In this document: piece by piece, positions 3,144-30,972 of the stretch | Layout of the letters: each line of letters begins with the position of its first letter | Position numbering within the stretch: position 1 is the stretch's first letter | NCBI GenBank assembly: GCA_029246985.1 | Contig: JAQWMC010000056.1 | Coordinates: forward strand, 1 to 32,978 | Reading direction: 5' to 3' | DNA from: Pirellulales bacterium | GTDB lineage: Bacteria > Planctomycetota > Planctomycetia > Pirellulales > UBA1268 | DNA length: 32,978 bases | Made by a program: the position numbers and the translations under genes | Notes under the pieces: generated by a model | Database searches by the model: none | What the model was told of the DNA's origin: nothing | What the model saw: the letters and a program-made list of their open reading frames with translations, nothing else

Positions 3144-3659
3144 TTAACCCGCAAGCCTGCGGGTTGTCGTATCCTCATTGGCTTCAGCAAGGAAATGCAT
3201 CAAGTACGCATCTTCCGTGGTGTCTTGATAGAAGTCGCGGAGGACACTTGTGGCGAGAAATCCTAGGGAACGGAAGAAAACTTGAGCAGGAAGATTCGTT
3301 TCGCGCACTTCTAAAACAATTCTGTTACGTCGTTGAGGGCTGAGTTTTGAGATTAATTTAGTTAGCATTGCAGTGCCAATTCCCAGTCGCCTGTGCGTGC
3401 GGGCAACGGCAAAGTTTAAAATGTGTACTTTTGTTCGGTGGAGTTCGTACAGCATGTAACCCACAACGCCACCACTTATTTCGGCAACCATGCCAATACA
3501 GTTTCGTTGTCGTAAGCATCGAGTGAAATCCGTATCAGCCCAGGGGAACTCAAATGATTCCTCCTCAATACAGAGAATTTCAGCCATGTCTCGACGGATC
3601 ATCCAACGAATTTGCACCTGGTCAGTTGAGGGAAGATGGTGGTCGTAGGTGGTTTTCAC
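3144..3659 (-). CDS. rimI: GNAT N-acetyltransferase, RimI-type
   Basis: This is a single-domain GNAT protein of 171 residues. It has the RimI beginning I-R-R-D-M-A-E-I-L-C-I-E-E-E-S-F-E-F-P-W and the strand G-Y-M-L-Y-E-L. The acetyl-CoA pyrophosphate loop R-R-L-G-I-G-T-A-M-L is motif A (R/Q-x-x-G-x-G/A). It also has the late motif L-E-V-R-E-T-N-L-P-A-Q-V-F-F-R-S-L-G-F. RimI acetylates the N-terminal alanine of ribosomal protein S18 in E. coli; that exact substrate is inferred from family resemblance. The C-terminal tail after the GNAT core is short and Thr/Arg rich. The gene converges on the ATP-grasp gene, and a hairpin spans its stop codon. Confidence 0.82.
   Translation of the reverse strand: MKTTYDHHLPSTDQVQIRWMIRRDMAEILCIEEESFEFPWADTDFTRCLRQRNCIGMVAEISGGVVGYMLYELHRTKVHILNFAVARTHRRLGIGTAMLTKLISKLSPQRRNRIVLEVRETNLPAQVFFRSLGFLATSVLRDFYQDTTEDAYLMHFLAEANEDTTTRRLAG
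3146..3165. terminator. Hairpin between convergent ATP-grasp and rimI genes
   Basis: An exact 8-bp stem, AACCCGCA (3146-3153) with TGCGGGTT (3158-3165), closes a 4-nt loop 18 bases past the ATP-grasp stop and over the rimI stop codon. T-rich tracts are weak on both sides, so a bidirectional terminator is plausible but not certain. Confidence 0.45.
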
Positions 3660-3935
3660 AGAATTTTCTCCGAAGATCTCTTTGGCTCGATTTATGAAAA
3701 TAAGTCAGTAATTTGGTGTATTTGCTCTGCAACGTTGATTGTTTGCCGGTTTTGCTTTGGTGAGACGCTAGCAGGTCTTGGCGAGCCGACCAAGATGTTT
3801 CCTGCCCACGAAACTGCCTTGACCGCCTCGTACGAAGTGCCTACTTTCCCGGGGTCTGCCAGCCCCCGTTCTGTGCTGGCTTTACCTCGGTTGTTGGATA
3901 GTTGCATGAACTTGTTGCACATGCTTTCGCAACGA

Positions 3936-5684
3936 ATGCGAGGCCATATATATTGCAGATTTATTTCTTGCACCATTCTTGGTGGAATGGTGGTTGGGTG
4001 CGCTGGCCCAGCTATTCGTAGCCAAAGCCCAGAGCTTGAGGCTTTGGTGGCGGTCGAGTCTGCAACACAACTTGTAGGCGACTATGCTTCGCCGTGGGGG
4101 CTCAATAGCCAGCGAGTTGAGCGAGCGGCACTTATTACTGGCTTGTCTGATACGGGTAGTGATCCGCCTCCTGATCCACGTCGTCAGATGCTTTTGGAGG
4201 ACATGCAAGCAAGAGGAGTAGTCGATCCAAATCGCTTACTTGCGTCACGTTCAACCGCGCTCGCTTGGGTGAGTGGAACACTCCATCCGGGCATTCGTAA
4301 GGGTGACAGATTTGACGTCATTGTCGAAGTGCCAGGAAATCATGACACCACAAGCCTTTCTGGTGGTTGGCTTATGGAGGCCCGGCTGGTTGAGATGGCA
4401 GTTCTAGGGAATCGTATCCGCGACGGTCATACACTCGGGGTGGCAGAGGGACCATTGCTTGTCGATCCGGTTTCTACTGGTGTAGTCGATTCAGTTGCAA
4501 CTCTTCGCGGTCGAGTACCTGGTGGTGGTGTTGCGTTGACTTCACGGTCTATTGGTCTATCGATTCATCCGGAGCATCGATCTGTCGGGCTGTCGAAACG
4601 GATTGGCGATTGTATTAATCAGAGATTTCATGCAATTATTCGGGGAGTAAAGCGTGGTGTTGCAACTCCGAAAACAGACCGCTTTATCGAACTCGAGGTT
4701 CCTGAGATGTATAGGAATAATTTAGGCCGCTACGTAAGTGTTGTTCGGTCGCTGGCGGTTGCTGAGCCGAGTGGTAATCGCCATGCAAGGCTAGAGCTAC
4801 TTTCGAGGCAGCTTGAAGATCCCGTCACTGCACCACGAGCTGCGTTAAGACTTGAAGCTATTGGAAAAGATGCAATCGGCACTCTTCGTGAAGGGCTTGG
4901 GTCGACGGATGCGGAAGTGCGTTTTGTCTCGGCTGAGGCACTTGCATATCTCGGAGAGTCACTGGCGGCCGAAAGACTCGCAGAGGCAGCTCGTGATCTC
5001 AGAAGCGCTCGTCCAAAAGCATTAGCCGCACTCGCAATCTTGGATGATGCAAATGGGATCGATGCACTTCGTTCTCTTCTGAGCAGTCGTAGTGCAGAAA
5101 CTCGGTATGGTGCTTTTCGTGGACTTTCTATGATTGATGCCCGGTTGCCTGACATTCGTGGTGACATGCTTGGCGAAGCATGTCGGCTTCATGTTATTGA
5201 TGTTTCCGGCGAACCTCTTATTCATGCGACTAGAGCGGCTCGGGCCGAGGTGGTGCTCTTTGGAGACTCACATCCTGTCAGCGACGGGCTTCGAGTTGAA
5301 GCAGGGCCTTCAATTGTAGTGGTGGTGGAAGGAAATGGTGCGGTCGTGAACTGCTTTAGGCCAGACGAACCGGACCTTGTAAAGGAAGTTGACTCCCAGG
5401 TAGAAGATATCCTGCATGCGATTGTTGAATGTGGAGGTGGGTATCCCGATGTTATTCAATTTTTGCAACAGGCCACAGCACAGCGAAAAATAGAAAGTCG
5501 CCTTGCGTTTGATGCAATCCCTACAGAATTTGATGGACGGCTTAGCGTTCCAAGGGAAGTCGTAAATAGGAATCAGGATACAGAGAACGAGGATGATCAA
5601 AGTAAGGGTAGCAACAGCAAAGAAGAGCCAGAAAGTTACTGGCCTTCTCTGTTCGATACAGCCCTGTTGGAATCCGGCGCATGA
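3936..5684 (+). CDS. FlgI (P-ring)-like lipoprotein with HEAT-type repeats
   Basis: Predicted exported lipoprotein of about 582 residues. From the ATG at 3936 the N-terminus is a short basic segment, a hydrophobic stretch, and a V-V-G-C lipobox with Cys22. Residues about 90-230 resemble the flagellar P-ring protein FlgI. They include R-K-G-D-R-F-D-V-I-V-E-V, S-L-S-G-G-W-L-M and a run of short beta-like segments around G-P-L-L-V-D. The middle (about 290-410) has repeated A-L/A-E-A-L helical units typical of HEAT repeats. The C-terminal 40 residues are acidic and polar (E/D/N/S-rich). No other flagellar gene is in the window, so a true P-ring role is doubtful. The start is uncertain: in-frame ATGs also lie at 3906, 3921 and 3795, without a clear ribosome-binding site. 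The stop overlaps the smc start as ATGA, suggesting translational coupling. Confidence 0.6.
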   Translation: MRGHIYCRFISCTILGGMVVGCAGPAIRSQSPELEALVAVESATQLVGDYASPWGLNSQRVERAALITGLSDTGSDPPPDPRRQMLLEDMQARGVVDPNRLLASRSTALAWVSGTLHPGIRKGDRFDVIVEVPGNHDTTSLSGGWLMEARLVEMAVLGNRIRDGHTLGVAEGPLLVDPVSTGVVDSVATLRGRVPGGGVALTSRSIGLSIHPEHRSVGLSKRIGDCINQRFHAIIRGVKRGVATPKTDRFIELEVPEMYRNNLGRYVSVVRSLAVAEPSGNRHARLELLSRQLEDPVTAPRAALRLEAIGKDAIGTLREGLGSTDAEVRFVSAEALAYLGESLAAERLAEAARDLRSARPKALAALAILDDANGIDALRSLLSSRSAETRYGAFRGLSMIDARLPDIRGDMLGEACRLHVIDVSGEPLIHATRAARAEVVLFGDSHPVSDGLRVEAGPSIVVVVEGNGAVVNCFRPDEPDLVKEVDSQVEDILHAIVECGGGYPDVIQFLQQATAQRKIESRLAFDAIPTEFDGRLSVPREVVNRNQDTENEDDQSKGSNSKEEPESYWPSLFDTALLESGA

Positions 5685-8600
5685 TAACACTGAAAGCCCT
5701 GGAGCTTTTCGGATTCAAGAGTTTTGCTGACCGAACCAGATTTGAGTTTCCGGAAGGCATTACCGTTGTTGTTGGTCCAAATGGCTCTGGAAAATCAAAT
5801 GTCGTAGATGCAATCAAGTGGGTGCTTGGTGAGCAATCTGTACGCAATCTCAGAGGCAAGGCGTCTACTGATGTCATCTTTGCTGGTTCAGCAGCAAGAA
5901 AAGCACTTAATGCAGCTGAAGTTTCCCTTGTCTTCGATAATTCAACTCGCGAACTTCCCGTCGAATCAGATGAAGTACGAATTATGCGGCGGGTCTATAG
6001 AAGCGGGGAGAGCGAATATCTCGTCAATGACGGTATCAGCCGGCTTCGAGATATTCGTGAAATTCTCAGCGGAACAGGTACGGCGACAGACTCATATAGT
6101 GTTATTGAGCAAGGTCGGGTCGATGCCCTGCTGGTGGCGTCTGGTAAAGAGAGACGAGCCGTCTTCGAAGAGGCTGCCGGGATCACAAAATTTCGTTCAC
6201 GTCGGGCCGAAGCTATTCGGCGACTGGACCGAACAGAACAAAATCGTCAGCGGTTAGCAGATATTGTAGGCGAGGTCGCGTCTCGCTTAGAGACGGTCAA
6301 AAAACAGGCGAGCCGAGCTCGTCGATGGAAGCGGATGACAGAGAAGCTACAGTCTCTGCGTTTTGCTGCCGCATCTGCAGACCTTGTTGGCGTAAATGCC
6401 TTGCTTGAAGAGGTGTCGGTATCGATCAACGAAGCAGACAAGCGATCCGAAGTAGCTCAAGCTGAAAAAGCAGCCGCTGGAACGGAGATTCAAAGCCTTG
6501 AAGAACAGCAAAAAGAGATCGATCCAAAGCTCACGGCAATTCAAGAACGATTAGCAGCTGATCGTGAAAATGTTGTTGCAATGGAAGCAAGGCGTGAGGC
6601 CTTACGAGTGCGCCATATTGACGTAGAGCAAGAACTTGCGTTGGCTACCAGCTATGTTCGTACGACTGAGGCAGAACTGCAATCGACGTATGGGGCGATT
6701 GATGTCATTCAAACTGATTGCAGTTCTGCATCTGATGAGTTACGTCGCGTTGAAGGCGAGTTGCGGCAACAAGAAAAGGCGATTGTAGGTTCGCGTGAAG
6801 ACGCTCAATCAGCTCAACGACGTTTGTCAGAGTTGCGGAATACCAAAGAGCGGCAGGCGATTGATCATCAAAAATTCGAGGCTGTCGTAGTTCAGCGACG
6901 AGGGGAAGCAAAAGCGGCCTTAGATGCTGTAGAGCGAAGCCAGAACGAATTAGATAAGTCATGGGCCTTGGTCCATCGGTTAGAAGAGAGTTCTGCATCA
7001 CTCGAAGGTACTGTAGATGTTCTTGGCCGACGTCGCGTTGAGTTGCAGGCTCGTCATGACCAACTCGATGCTGAACAGCAAAGTGCTACGAAGAAAGTAG
7101 AACAGGCTTGGCAGACCCTCGCTGAGCGGCAGGGCCGACTCGAAGCTCTTCGTGATCGAGAGAAACTGCTCGAAGATTTGATTACCTCTCATGAGGGTGT
7201 TTCTGATGCTACTCGTCAAGTTCTCGATCGTTTTGCTAACGATATACCAGGTTTGCGTGGCCTGCCCGCTGATCTTATCGTTGCCGACAGTCAGTGGGCT
7301 GGTCTTGTTGACATAGCAGTCGGTGTACTTGGTCAGCGGGTCGTTGTGGAACGTCTTTCCGACATGCTTGACTGGTATGAACGTTGGCAGAATACTTCGT
7401 CTGCTCAGGGACTGGCCTCAACAAGTGGTCGGATTGGCTTTCTCGCAATCGATAGGTTGCCTGAGCCGCCGTCGTTGAATTTCAAAAAAGATTTCGGGGA
7501 GGCTGAGACCGGTGTCGTTGGCAGGCTTGATCATCTCGTTTCAGATGAGTTCGAAGAAGAGAGTGCAAGTGAGAAACATTTACACCCTGAATTAATACAT
7601 GAATATGGGCCCGAGCAATCTCCTAATCAGGCTGTGCAGCAGCACGATGGAACTGACGTAAGTGATGTATTAAAAAGACGCTTGCTCGGTCGAGTCTGGA
7701 TCGTTGAGTCCATTAGCAAGGTACGGCGGGTCGTCGATCGTATGCCGCCTGGATTGGTTTTCCTTGATCGAACAGGTAGCTGGCTATCAAGTGACGGAGG
7801 GTTCGAGACGGGGGCAAGTGGGGCTGATACGGGGCTTGTTTCTCGTCACAGCGAACTGCGGACTGTGAAAATAGACCAGCAGGCCATTCTGGTATCTGTT
7901 CGTGATGCCAAGAATGAATTACAGAATTGCCAAAAGAACATTGAAGACTTGAGGGAAGAGCAGAAGCGCCTTGTTGCAAAACAGCATGAGTTGGCAGAGT
8001 CGATAGCATCGAGTAGGAGCGAACAGCAGCGATTCCAGCGAGAAATGCTTCTTACTCGCAGTCAAGTGGATGAACAGCAGCAGGCGTTGCATGAAGCAGA
8101 GTCTCAAGCCGTCGAAGCAGCTAACGCTGTTCGTTCCGCAACGGGTGAGAGTGGGAAAATTACTGCTGAGATCAGTAGGACAGATAAGACACTTGAGGAA
8201 GTTGAATCGAATCTTGAGTCACTCGGCCAGTCGCATGAACAGGTTCTCGAGCAAATCGAGGGTTTTCGCGATCGGTTGTCTGTCTGCAGAGAACGTGTCG
8301 CAGGACTCGAAGCAACGGTTATTGCAAAGCAGGCTGATAAAAATCGTCAGGAAGCAGAGTCAACTGCAGCACTATCAAAGGTGAAGGCGGTCAAAGAAAG
8401 GGTATCTATTATTGAGCTCGACTTGCTTGTCGCCGGTGATAAATATGCAGAAGCGTGCTTGTTGGCGGAACGATCGGCTCGACTTGTCTCAACACTAGTC
8501 AATCAGCGAATGGCAATCGGTGTTGCTGAAAAGAAAGCTAAGAATGTACTTGATGGTGCTCGTGAAACTCTTCAGGACTGCAGCTCAATTAGTCATGCGG

Positions 8601-9424
8601 CTGACCTTAAAAAAGAAACGGCTATGCATCAGCGCACGCGGGTCCTCGAGCGATTGCACGATGACTATGGAATTGATCCTATGGCTGAATTGCCGCCTCC
8701 AGCAAGCACGGACTCCGAAGGGAATACTATTGAGATTCCTGAGGACCGTGAAGAACTCGATGGCTTAATAGAAGAAACAAGAAGAAAGCTCGGCACTGTT
8801 GGCTCGGTGAATCTCGAGGCACTAGCCGAATCAGAAGCCCTTGCCGAGCGCTTGGCTGGGCTCGAGACTCAGCTTGTCGATGTCACTGATGCAAAACAGT
8901 CTGTTGAAAAACTTATTGAGCGCATTGATGAAGAAAGCCGCCGTTTGCTCGGAGAGACAATCGAAAAAGTAAGAGCTGAATTTTCTGTTCTTTTTGAGCG
9001 GCTGTTTGGAGGTGGGCAGGCGGATATTATTCTTGATCCAGAGATCGATCTTCTGGAAACCACAGTTGAAATTATGGCTCGGCCGCCTGGTAAAGAGCCT
9101 CGCAATATTTCACTATTATCTGGAGGGGAGAAGACGATGACCTGCGTTGCACTCCTGCTCGCGATTTTCCGTTCTCGCCCCAGTCCCTTCTGTGTGCTCG
9201 ATGAAGTCGACGCTGCGCTTGATGAAGCCAACGTCGACCGATTTGTCGGAGTGCTACGAGATTTCCTATCTTCAACCCAGTTTATCGTGGTTACGCATTC
9301 GAAAAAGACAATGGCAACCGCTACTACTTTATACGGCGTCACCATGGAAGAATCGGGTGTTTCGAAGCGGGTGGCTGTTCAATTTGAGTCAAATTCATCT
9401 TCTGTACAGCCAAAAGCAGCCTGA
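5681..9424 (+). CDS. smc: Chromosome segregation ATPase SMC
   Basis: SMC organises and segregates the chromosome as a ring-forming homodimer working with ScpAB. The 1247-residue product has the whole architecture. The N-terminal ATPase half carries Walker A G-P-N-G-S-G-K-S-N at residues 32-40. It is followed by a long coiled coil, a hinge around residues 510-730, and a second coiled coil. The C-terminal half carries the ABC signature L-S-G-G-E and Walker B C-V-L-D-E-V-D at about residues 1146-1178. The hinge appears to hold an acidic, low-conservation insertion (about residues 620-660, E/Q/H-rich). The ATG lies inside the upstream lipoprotein's stop codon (ATGA). No scpA or scpB is adjacent. 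Confidence 0.97.
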   Translation: MITLKALELFGFKSFADRTRFEFPEGITVVVGPNGSGKSNVVDAIKWVLGEQSVRNLRGKASTDVIFAGSAARKALNAAEVSLVFDNSTRELPVESDEVRIMRRVYRSGESEYLVNDGISRLRDIREILSGTGTATDSYSVIEQGRVDALLVASGKERRAVFEEAAGITKFRSRRAEAIRRLDRTEQNRQRLADIVGEVASRLETVKKQASRARRWKRMTEKLQSLRFAAASADLVGVNALLEEVSVSINEADKRSEVAQAEKAAAGTEIQSLEEQQKEIDPKLTAIQERLAADRENVVAMEARREALRVRHIDVEQELALATSYVRTTEAELQSTYGAIDVIQTDCSSASDELRRVEGELRQQEKAIVGSREDAQSAQRRLSELRNTKERQAIDHQKFEAVVVQRRGEAKAALDAVERSQNELDKSWALVHRLEESSASLEGTVDVLGRRRVELQARHDQLDAEQQSATKKVEQAWQTLAERQGRLEALRDREKLLEDLITSHEGVSDATRQVLDRFANDIPGLRGLPADLIVADSQWAGLVDIAVGVLGQRVVVERLSDMLDWYERWQNTSSAQGLASTSGRIGFLAIDRLPEPPSLNFKKDFGEAETGVVGRLDHLVSDEFEEESASEKHLHPELIHEYGPEQSPNQAVQQHDGTDVSDVLKRRLLGRVWIVESISKVRRVVDRMPPGLVFLDRTGSWLSSDGGFETGASGADTGLVSRHSELRTVKIDQQAILVSVRDAKNELQNCQKNIEDLREEQKRLVAKQHELAESIASSRSEQQRFQREMLLTRSQVDEQQQALHEAESQAVEAANAVRSATGESGKITAEISRTDKTLEEVESNLESLGQSHEQVLEQIEGFRDRLSVCRERVAGLEATVIAKQADKNRQEAESTAALSKVKAVKERVSIIELDLLVAGDKYAEACLLAERSARLVSTLVNQRMAIGVAEKKAKNVLDGARETLQDCSSISHAADLKKETAMHQRTRVLERLHDDYGIDPMAELPPPASTDSEGNTIEIPEDREELDGLIEETRRKLGTVGSVNLEALAESEALAERLAGLETQLVDVTDAKQSVEKLIERIDEESRRLLGETIEKVRAEFSVLFERLFGGGQADIILDPEIDLLETTVEIMARPPGKEPRNISLLSGGEKTMTCVALLLAIFRSRPSPFCVLDEVDAALDEANVDRFVGVLRDFLSSTQFIVVTHSKKTMATATTLYGVTMEESGVSKRVAVQFESNSSSVQPKAA

Positions 9425-9782
9425 CCGGCGGCGTTACCAAAATCTTCCGAAAGAACGGCTCAAGTCTCACGACATGATCTTTCGATCTAACCTCTTGGAT
9501 GGTCATGTTTGCTGAAACTGATTCACTGTGAAACGGTTTTGCAAATATGAAGCAGGGGGGCCTGCAAGCCATGGTATTCACCAAGCTGAAGATGAAGGTC
9601 TTCGGTTTGTCAGGCGGAATGCTTTGGCTTGCCTTTCTTTGCTTTCACCGCCCCTGTCGGAAAGTGGCGACGCGGCCAAACCGACAGACATGCCGCGTCG
9701 GGGGGGCCGTGTCTCGAAACTCATTGCGAGTAGCGAGCTGGCCGAAATGAGTTCAGACACGAAGACAAAATGGAGTCTAGTA
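9425..9782 (+). ncRNA. Structured 5' leader with an apparent pseudoknot (candidate cis-acting RNA)
   Basis: This 358-bp gap has no convincing gene but dense complementarity from about 9552 to 9760. Paired segments are GCAGG/CCTGC (9552-9556 with 9561-9565), GCAAGCCA/TGGCTTGC (9564-9571 with 9625-9632), and CTGTCGG/CCGACAG (9654-9660 with 9681-9687). GACGCGG/CCGCGTC (9669-9675 with 9693-9699) interleaves with the previous pair, giving an H-type pseudoknot. The last element is a long stem of about 15 pairs with two bulges (9709-9725 with 9746-9760). It ends 11 bases before the GGAG ribosome-binding site of the downstream gene. I recognise no known RNA class. The region could be a riboswitch-like or autoregulatory leader, or an independent small RNA. 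Confidence 0.45.
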
Positions 9783-10355
9783 ATGAAGGTGTTTACGACA
9801 GGCCAGGTCGCGAAGATCTGTAAAGTTGCTCCCCGAACCGTAAGTAAATGGTTCGACTCGGGTAGGCTTAAAGGATATCGCATTCCAGGATCACAAGATC
9901 GCCGCATTCCACGCGAATATCTTATTAAGTTTCTAAAAGAGCACGGAATGCCCTTGGGCGACTTAGAAGACGAGGCAATGGCCAAAGTCTTGCTCGTCGG
10001 ACAAGATCAACTGCTCATTGAAAACCTCAAGCGGCACTTGCCGGCGGAAAATTCATTCAAGATACAAGTTGCTGCCAGTGGATTTGAGGCAGGTATTCAG
10101 GCTGAAAGCTTTCACCCGGACTGCATTGTCGTTGATTATGCAATCGGCCGGATTGACGCTCAGCAAATTTGTCAGAATCTTCGAAGGAATGCTGAGTATG
10201 CCGAAACAATTGTTATTGCTTTGCTACCCGATGATGGATCGCAGATAACAGTTGACAGAAACCACGTGAATGAGAGTTTTAAGAAGCCATTTGATGTGGC
10301 TTTGCTTGCCGAGAGACTCAGGACACTCATCGGTTCACGTAAAGAATTAGTATAA
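9783..10355 (+). CDS. HTH (excisionase/MerR-like) regulator with a degenerate receiver domain
   Basis: This 190-residue protein has two parts. Residues 1-54 form a helix-turn-helix of the excisionase/MerR kind: T-T-G-Q-V-A-K-I-C-K-V-A-P-R-T-V-S-K-W-F, then a wing with R-R-I-P-R-E-Y-L. Residues 67-185 resemble a response-regulator receiver. Asp118 in C-I-V-V-D-Y sits at the phospho-acceptor position, and a Lys-Pro pair (K168-P169) sits at the conserved lysine. The usual N-terminal acidic pair is reduced to one Asp (V-G-Q-D-Q, D75), so phosphorylation may be weak or absent. I chose the ATG at 9783 for its GGAG site; the frame is open to 9528, but that upstream part is structured RNA and not protein-like. 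No partner kinase is nearby. A DNA-binding regulatory role is likely; its targets are unknown. Confidence 0.75.
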   Translation: MKVFTTGQVAKICKVAPRTVSKWFDSGRLKGYRIPGSQDRRIPREYLIKFLKEHGMPLGDLEDEAMAKVLLVGQDQLLIENLKRHLPAENSFKIQVAASGFEAGIQAESFHPDCIVVDYAIGRIDAQQICQNLRRNAEYAETIVIALLPDDGSQITVDRNHVNESFKKPFDVALLAERLRTLIGSRKELV

Positions 10356-10414: not shown

Positions 10415-10440
10415 TCGTGTGTTTAACGGTTCTAGCGGGT

Positions 10441-10950
10441 ATGCTTAAGGTGATGAGTAAGCAAATACAACCCGTTAAAATGATTGATGTTGGCCATAAA
10501 GCGGTGACGGCACGAACAGCAGAAGCTTCGGGCTCTCTCTTGTTGCAGTTGACGACGCTTGAACACATTCGTGCTGGCGAACTTGCTAAAGGAGATGCGA
10601 TAAATACGGCACGGGTTGCTGGGATTATGGCTGCGAAGCGCACCGCCGAATTTGTACCGCTTTGTCATCCTTTGCCACTCGATGCCGTTGCCGTTGACAT
10701 TCACTTTGAAAAGGGTGTTGACGGTCGTCGGGCTGCTATAACAGTTGCTGTGAAGGTTGTTACGAGTGCAAAAACAGGTGTCGAAATGGAAGCGTTGACG
10801 GCAGTCGCAGCTTCTCTTCTGTCTCTGTACGATATGGCAAAATCAATTGATCGGGATATGGTGATCAGCGAGATCAAATTAGATAAGAAAACGGGTGGAA
10901 GCCGAGGCTGTTATGTAAGGTCCGGTGAGGCATCAACGCCTTCGGAATGA
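10441..10950 (+). CDS. moaC: Cyclic pyranopterin monophosphate synthase MoaC
   Basis: MoaC converts the MoaA product (3',8-cyclo-7,8-dihydro-GTP) to cyclic pyranopterin monophosphate in molybdenum-cofactor synthesis. The 169-residue product has the conserved blocks: M-I-D-V-G-H-K near the start, A-G-I-M-A-A-K-R-T, L-C-H-P-L-P-L, and G-V-E-M-E-A-L-T-A-V. These are followed by Y-D-M-A-K-S-I-D-R and K-T-G-G-S-R-G. Either ATG 10441 or ATG 10453 could be the start; neither has a well-spaced ribosome-binding site. No other moa/mob genes are present. A Mo- or W-dependent formylmethanofuran dehydrogenase would be a C1-linked reason for needing the cofactor, but the bacterial Fhc complex does not need it, so I read the placement as incidental. 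The last 40 bases overlap the opposing nrdR gene. Confidence 0.95.
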   Translation: MLKVMSKQIQPVKMIDVGHKAVTARTAEASGSLLLQLTTLEHIRAGELAKGDAINTARVAGIMAAKRTAEFVPLCHPLPLDAVAVDIHFEKGVDGRRAAITVAVKVVTSAKTGVEMEALTAVAASLLSLYDMAKSIDRDMVISEIKLDKKTGGSRGCYVRSGEASTPSE

Positions 10951-15637: not shown

Positions 15638-15670
15638 TTGTGCAGGATATTCTGCGAATCAGAGCGACTG

Positions 15671-15770
15671 CCGATGAGAGGCCCACCGCACAAAGAGACG
15701 ACTGCTTATGGCTGCTGCGGTTAAGCCCTGACCAGGTTCACAGGCCTCCATCGCAGGGGCCCCTCATCGG
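15671..15770 (-). ncRNA. ffs: Signal recognition particle RNA, bacterial small (4.5S-like) type
   Basis: The 100-base segment folds as one long hairpin. The ends CCGATGAG and CTCATCGG are exact complements, and the pairing continues inward through GGCCC/GGGCC with one G-U. The tip has the universally conserved SRP pieces in order: GTGAACC, GGTCAGG and AGCAGCC, then ATAAGC. The apical part between the two conserved loops reads GCTTAACCGC instead of a GGAA (GNRA-type) tetraloop stem. The RNA binds Ffh to target membrane proteins. The position just upstream of dnaX on the same strand matches the scr/ffs-dnaX order of many bacteria. The exact ends are estimated from the pairing. Confidence 0.88.
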
Positions 15771-28140: not shown

Positions 28141-28214
28141 GCCCCGTTAGCTCAATTGGTTAGAGCATCTGACTCTTAATCAGAGGGTTCCAGGTTCGAG
28201 TCCTGGACGGGGTA
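28141..28214 (+). tRNA. tRNA-Lys (anticodon CTT)
   Basis: A full cloverleaf is visible: the acceptor arms GCCCCGT and ACGGGGT pair with G1-U72 wobble. The D loop is TAGCTCAATTGGTTAGAGC-like. The anticodon stem TCTGA/TCAGA encloses CTCTTAA, giving anticodon CTT for Lys AAG. The T arm is CCAGG-TTCGAGT-CCTGG. The discriminator is A and CCA is not encoded. A recombinase relic begins five bases downstream, so the 3' end probably served as an attachment site. Confidence 0.97.
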
Positions 28215-28218
28215 CTGC

Positions 28219-30318: not shown

Positions 30319-30972
30319 TCAATAGTTATCGAACCCCTGCCGGACTGCCCAAACCGCGGCCTGAGTGCGGTCTTTGACTTGAAGTTTTCGTAAGATGTTT
30401 TGGACGTGTTCTTTCACTGTTTCGATGCTAATTCCAAGTGAGTTAGCAATTTCTTGATTAGAAAGTCCCAGTGAAATGATCTTTAAAACCTGAAACTCTC
30501 GTGGCGTTAATGGAGCGTTGATGTCTGAGGGCAGCCTTCGTTTCGATAAACGTGCAGTCAATTTTTTTAATTGACTGTCGGGGCGAGGTGTCGCATTAGC
30601 GGCGGCACCCTCGATGGCAGCACATAAGGTGTCCTTACTTGCTGTCTTAAGGATGAAATCAGTAGCGCCGGCAGCTGCAGTTCGGGCTATAGCAGTGGGG
30701 CTATCGAAAGCGGTGAATACAATAACGTGGCACTTCGGGCAGATATCCCGTAGTGGCTTGATGAGTGAAATCCCATCCTCGCCAGCATGAAGTCTCACAT
30801 CGAGCAAAACAACGTCGGGCTGAAGCGTGCGGCAGTCTTCCAGGCCCTGCTCTCCTGACGGTGCTGTTCCTACGACGGTGATGTGGCCGCCGTGCAAGAT
30901 CGCAGAAATTCCTTGCAGAACAACTTCGTGGTCATCAATTAGAAATACGTGTATTGGAGGAGCGTTAGTCAT
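30319..30972 (-). CDS. NarL/LuxR-family response regulator
   Basis: This 217-residue two-component regulator has a receiver domain at residues 6-125. The acidic pair is D13-D14, Asp58 in V-V-L-L-D-V-R is the phospho-acceptor, and Lys109 is the conserved lysine. A linker follows, and then a LuxR-type HTH at about residues 150-212 (L-T-P-R-E-F-Q-V-L-K-I-I ... S-N-Q-E-I-A-N-S-L-G-I-S-I-E-T-V-K-E-H-V-Q-N-I-L-R-K-L). All key residues are present, so it should be phosphorylatable. No histidine kinase is in the window, so its signal is unknown. It is on the same strand as, and 166 bases downstream of, the glycosyltransferase fusion gene. Confidence 0.92.
   Translation of the reverse strand: MTNAPPIHVFLIDDHEVVLQGISAILHGGHITVVGTAPSGEQGLEDCRTLQPDVVLLDVRLHAGEDGISLIKPLRDICPKCHVIVFTAFDSPTAIARTAAAGATDFILKTASKDTLCAAIEGAAANATPRPDSQLKKLTARLSKRRLPSDINAPLTPREFQVLKIISLGLSNQEIANSLGISIETVKEHVQNILRKLQVKDRTQAAVWAVRQGFDNY

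Follow-up and report, generated by a model that had tools for sequence, protein, structure and literature searches.

A pseudoknotted leader upstream of an HTH/receiver regulator gene in Pirellulales, a candidate family of cis-acting RNA

The mRNA leaders of ribosomal proteins S15 and L20 of Escherichia coli are autogenous and contain pseudoknots, and the preQ1-II, SAM-II and fluoride riboswitches are also pseudoknotted. Leaders of 340–550 nt that are highly conserved are rare; they generally mark riboswitches, key genes under autogenous control or RNAs that have an activity of their own. The Rhodopirellula-1 motif is listed for Proteobacteria and Planctomycetes, without an Rfam number and with cis-regulation judged likely (PMC2864571), while the main text of three surveys leaves planctomycetes unmentioned (PMC11109978, PMC8632094 and PMC6429828). 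A literature search in open papers returned nothing on the leader of the HTH/receiver gene described here.

The window, a stretch of 32,978 nucleotides from a Pirellulales bacterium (contig JAQWMC010000056.1), contains the structured leader of this gene at 9446–9782. An SMC-like gene (5681–9424) is located upstream of the leader, and moaC (10417–10950) is located downstream of the HTH/receiver gene. The parts of the leader and the gene are as follows:

9446–9508, + strand: 5′ conserved block (AAGAACGGCTCAAGTCTCAC...TTTCGATCTAAC...GGATGGTCATG), up to 93% identity between genera
9552–9565, + strand: G-run hairpin GCAGG-GGGG-CCTGC, near-invariant in the window's family
9564–9632, + strand: long imperfect hairpin between the G-run hairpin and the pseudoknot (z = −3.6)
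9654–9687, + strand: pseudoknot helix S1, 9654–9660 with 9681–9687 (covariation; rank 2 in the stem scan)
9669–9699, + strand: pseudoknot helix S2, 9669–9675 with 9693–9699 (covariation; rank 1 in the stem scan)
9700–9706, + strand: second G-run, GGGGGG invariant in the family (invariant columns, stem scan, nested fold)
9708–9761, + strand: bulged stem with a conserved outer part, 9708–9714/9755–9761 (GUGUYC/GGACAC in the family; 92% of cells paired)
9772–9775, + strand: ribosome-binding site GGAG, invariant in the window's family, with fixed spacing to the start codon
9783–10355, + strand: gene of a 190 aa protein with an HTH_17 (BldC/excisionase-like) domain and a response-regulator receiver (Pfam, NCBIfam, order-wide homologues)

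Homologues of the HTH/receiver protein were found in 77 of the 78 Pirellulales genomes searched, and the HTH part is nearly invariant throughout the order; according to NCBIfam, it is closest to BldC and excisionases, with scores below the cut-offs. The receiver of the protein encoded at 9783–10355 retains the phospho-acceptor aspartate and one lysine; its start (VGQDQ) has a single acidic residue, and the usual Thr/Ser is missing. The predicted receiver is of an atypical type, conserved across Pirellulales. A second HTH-receiver paralogue with 35–40% identity is present in nearly every Pirellulales genome. A number of MAG records that bear the Pirellulales leader and gene (L168, L173, L174, L183, L195 and others) are titled ‘Candidatus Kuenenia stuttgartiensis’ or ‘Planctomicrobium piriforme’; these titles look mislabelled. 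The window also contains an ordinary bacterial small SRP RNA (15670–15768, − strand) and an ordinary tRNA-Lys(CTT) (28141–28215, + strand).

All pairings proposed in the initial annotation were found where it had placed them. Helix S1 joins CTGTCGG to CCGACAG, and S2 joins GACGCGG to CCGCGTC and can be extended to 9 bp. The two helices are interleaved, with loops of 8 (9661–9668), 5 (9676–9680) and 5 nt (9688–9692), in agreement with the lengths given earlier. The bulged stem is 78% paired over 9711–9728/9743–9760, and the pairing of its outer part is perfect. Segment 9425–9782 has a folding z-score of −5.4 against dinucleotide shuffles, with 0 of 100 shuffles as stable; the 210-nt stretch from 9552 has z = −4.5 on the + strand and −1.5 on the − strand and ranks second for fold stability against 313 overlapping 210-nt segments covering the whole sequence. 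The z-score of −5.4 and this rank bear out the suggestion that the region is more structured than its neighbours. The range first assigned to it, 9552–9760, was too narrow, as conservation begins at about 9446. Folded alone, 9648–9708 reaches z = −1.0 only, and a nested fold cannot hold a pseudoknot; the case for the pseudoknot therefore rests on covariation, not on energy. Two other stretches of the window's + strand fold with unusual stability: 30451–30660 (z = −4.8) and 3886–4095 (z = −4.4), the latter inside a FlgI-like/HEAT ORF (3636–5684).

Covariation was assessed in an automatic alignment of 39 leaders from other genera of the family, with the window's genus excluded. Double changes occur at three of the seven pairs in each pseudoknot helix, with 92% of cells paired in S1 and 99% in S2; in one relative, for example, GACGCGG/CCGCGTC has become GGTGCGA/TCGCACC. 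The tested family structure as a whole has double changes at 10 of its 27 pairs and a covariation score of 0.169, compared with 0.126 ± 0.006 for shuffled (0/500) and at most 0.089 for slid controls. An unsupervised scan covering every 5-bp stem, used in place of a ranking of single column pairs, which G-U noise dominated, placed S2 first and S1 second, above every parallel-diagonal control. A home-made G-test and a pair test with a tree-based null found nothing significant in the leader; they also missed the strongest helix, which served as a positive control, and were discarded. Covariation in homologous leaders had been named beforehand as what the proposed H-type pseudoknot would have to show, and it is present, in the double changes and in the top ranks of the scan. 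The H-type pseudoknot is thereby confirmed at the level of sequence comparison, by compensatory changes in S1 and S2 across the 39 leaders. The window's genus has its own S1 sequence (CTGTCGG/CCGACAG; CATCGG/CCGGTG in one member), mostly still paired over five to seven pairs. In the bulged stem, the family alignment has a double change at one pair only, and the sequence of the hairpin at 9564–9632 is specific to the window's genus. One further candidate, a closing stem of the family (GGCCGGC/GCTGGCC), was considered and dropped; its 3′ side is invariant, its 5′ side is variable and it is missing from the window's genus.

A covariance model (R2) was made from the same alignment, free of the window's genus; it includes S2 and two stems and omits S1. 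R2 matches the window at 9624–9785 (E = 1.3e-12). It also recovers each of the six further members of the window's genus that were tested, the E-values of these seven matches ranging from 2e-18 to 2e-11, and four outlying leaders. Exactly one copy was found in each of 17 family genomes, and none in the other families sampled. The element AGAACGGYYCAAGTCKCAC of the 5′ block occurs a single time in almost all genomes of the family; in other families it was not found beyond chance-like matches with mismatches. Of 56 leaders measured, 55 have 331–365 nt between the 5′ block and the start codon, and the remaining one has 511 nt. The block is conserved as sequence, not through compensatory pairs; it may be a promoter/operator or the 5′ end of the RNA, and a part of the conserved region may thus act as DNA. 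The 5′ element was also examined as the possible mark of a regulon spread over the genome, but GTTTCTAAAGTC is not repeated in eight genomes.

A longer leader, of about 450–550 nt, occupies the same place before the gene in the 19 other Pirellulales families sampled. Its blocks follow a fixed order: TTTCTAAAGTC, TCGAAACTAACTTTCGGAAGGCTT, GCAGGGGGGACCTGC, TACGGATTTTC, GCCGATG, GGATCAGAGGGAACTGAGCC, GCCCCGACCCAGATG, CAAGGGGC and GGAGAGCCTG. Of these, GCAGGGGGGACCTGC is the form that the G-run hairpin takes in most other families of the order, where the ribosome-binding site reads GGAGAG. An automatic alignment of 40 sequences from these families has double changes at 15 of 21 tested pairs (64 cells, versus 15.8 in shuffles), and the order-wide stem scan ranks GTTTG/CAGGC and GCCCC/GGGGC first and second. 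A model (R1) of an 80-nt part of the order-wide leader gives one strong match per genome. Of 20 loci fetched, 19 have this match adjoining the HTH/receiver gene, and the twentieth is at a contig end; R1 gives no match in some Pirellulales genomes or in the window's family. In Planctomycetales, where the gene is 67–69% identical, it is again preceded by GGGGGGA and by GGAGAGCCCGC, and in some members also by ACCCCGACCCA, enclosed by a stem whose sequence differs; these Planctomycetales features were read by eye. Beyond the leader, about 550–600 nt upstream of the HTH/receiver start, other Pirellulales families contain a conserved GTTACGACTGG.GAAAGTTTCTAAAGTC, which may be a promoter/operator and has no repeat elsewhere in eight genomes.

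Three things, as judged here, link the leader of the window's family to the order-wide leader: both stand at the same place, both have the G-run hairpin and their 5′ blocks match weakly. The best of the block matches has an E-value of 3e-4; many others are correctly placed, with E above 2. The 3′ domains of the two leaders differ, and the pseudoknot therefore has no demonstrated homologue among the order-wide helices. The best explanation of these relations is that the window leader would be one uncultured family's version of a leader kept across Pirellulales and at least partly in Planctomycetales.

A search of the window and its relatives against Rfam (4227 families), at the gathering threshold or at E < 1 with lax filters, produced no match to the leader; the sole lax match, in one relative, falls in a coding region. 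This agrees with the initial annotation, which had recognised no known riboswitch class, and the predicted pseudoknot leader is an RNA family that Rfam lacks. Two features of cis-regulatory leaders were found here: a compensatory structure and a single copy, on the same strand, directly upstream of the same gene. The genes further upstream vary between families (an SMC-like gene in the window and, in a relative, a divergently oriented gene resembling IMP dehydrogenase), and leader and gene stay linked; the RNA would thus belong to the gene's own transcript. Strand-specific folding and compensatory changes point to transcription, and the strict cis linkage points to a regulatory role. The earlier suggestion of a cis-regulatory RNA gains support from this linkage, seen wherever it was checked, from covariation and from the lack of an Rfam match. 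The best reading is a new family of leader RNA that would act in cis and control the regulator after the start of transcription.

According to this reading, the HTH/receiver mRNA would have 9446–9782 as its 5′ leader, and this RNA would fold, in order, into the 5′ element, the G-run hairpin, the variable hairpin, the H-type pseudoknot with the second G-run and the bulged stem, followed by the ribosome-binding site. Alternative folds are predicted. In the family alignment, a C-rich run could pair with any of three partners, the loop of the G-run hairpin, the second G-run or the strand of S1 that is rich in G, the pairing of 9648–9654 with 9700–9706 being a possible one in the modelled folds; S2 could compete with a small hairpin formed by pseudoknot loops L1/L2. 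The alternatives of the C-run and G-runs are nearly invariant and hence lack covariation, and the window's genus retains only a shifted C-run. Switching between folds would control expression of the regulator in cis. The signal may be a small molecule, although the gene context suggests no ligand, or it may be a protein; one candidate is the regulator itself, whose HTH is of the DNA-binding type and which the initial annotation had named as a possible autoregulator. No intrinsic terminator was found on the + strand within the leader up to the start codon, which rules against a transcription attenuator; the controlled step would therefore most likely be translation or mRNA stability. There is no support for simple sequestration of the ribosome-binding site, as the complementarity of the leader to it is no higher than in shuffles (5.67 versus 5.56 ± 0.11 in the order, 4.93 versus 5.33 in the family). 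We assign a probability of about 0.68 to 9446–9782 being a multi-domain pseudoknotted 5′ leader of the HTH/receiver mRNA that acts in cis on expression of the regulator via alternative folds.

A free-standing structured RNA acting in trans, which the HTH/receiver gene merely follows or from which it receives read-through, would also account for the large size, the complex pseudoknotted fold, the class-wide conservation of the RNA and the conservation of the 5′ block on its own. We consider it unlikely: about 300 genomes searched with R1 and R2 contain no convincing copy apart from the gene, the length to the start codon is fixed, no terminator precedes the gene and, outside the window's family, the ribosome-binding site and its spacer are within the conserved motif. 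Conservation mainly at the level of DNA, as a promoter and operator array by which the gene would be under the control of its own HTH/receiver product, appears improbable for the leader as a whole. S1, S2 and the order-wide helices change sequence yet keep pairing, interleaved pairing is meaningless in DNA and the stability of the fold is strand-specific. The 5′ block, in contrast, is kept as sequence, other families have an imperfect dyad CGAAA-N5-TTTCG and the varying upstream genes mean that the gene needs a promoter of its own; DNA-level conservation probably holds for this block only. As for coding, ORF 9528–10355 is open, and the leader could in principle encode an N-terminal extension of the protein from 9528. 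About half of the family leaders, however, have in-frame stops, at places that differ between species, which makes the leader non-coding; indel lengths are not multiples of three, and the start of the protein, together with its ribosome-binding site, is fixed at 9783. The comparison of leaders across the family refutes the extension, and the chance of its being real is negligible.

With the cis-acting leader as the preferred reading, a wider proposal can be made tentatively, as a possibility that we rate well below an even chance: large structured RNAs (about 340–550 nt) of a new class would precede one near-universal regulator gene in the class Planctomycetia and would sense a ligand or protein, or have a function of their own. 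If this is true, RNA folding would govern expression of the regulator throughout Planctomycetia. The regulator is BldC-like, with an atypical receiver and an almost invariant DNA-binding domain, and is near-universal in Pirellulales; the RNA would offer a handle on the control of this core planctomycete regulator that is testable in cultured relatives.

Among known RNAs, tmRNA, RNase P RNA and 6S RNA resemble the leader in being large single-copy structured RNAs. As identities for it they were rejected: tmRNA and RNase P RNA are located at other places in relatives and have no match at the leader, and matches to 6S RNA, where there are any, are located elsewhere. The Rhodopirellula-1 motif is, like the leader, a candidate cis-regulatory RNA with planctomycete members; its reported range differs in that it is also listed in Proteobacteria (PMC2864571), whereas the leader goes with a single planctomycete gene, and the two may nevertheless be the same RNA. 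With the preQ1-II, SAM-II and fluoride riboswitches the leader shares a compact pseudoknot of the H type, located upstream of a gene; unlike them, it is far larger, has no Rfam match and always precedes one regulator gene, not metabolic or transport genes. The S15 and L20 leaders belong to ribosomal proteins, whereas here the product is a transcription regulator, its binding is putative only and Rfam has no match; like them, the leader is a long 5′ one, with a pseudoknot near the ribosome-binding site and a cis link to one gene.
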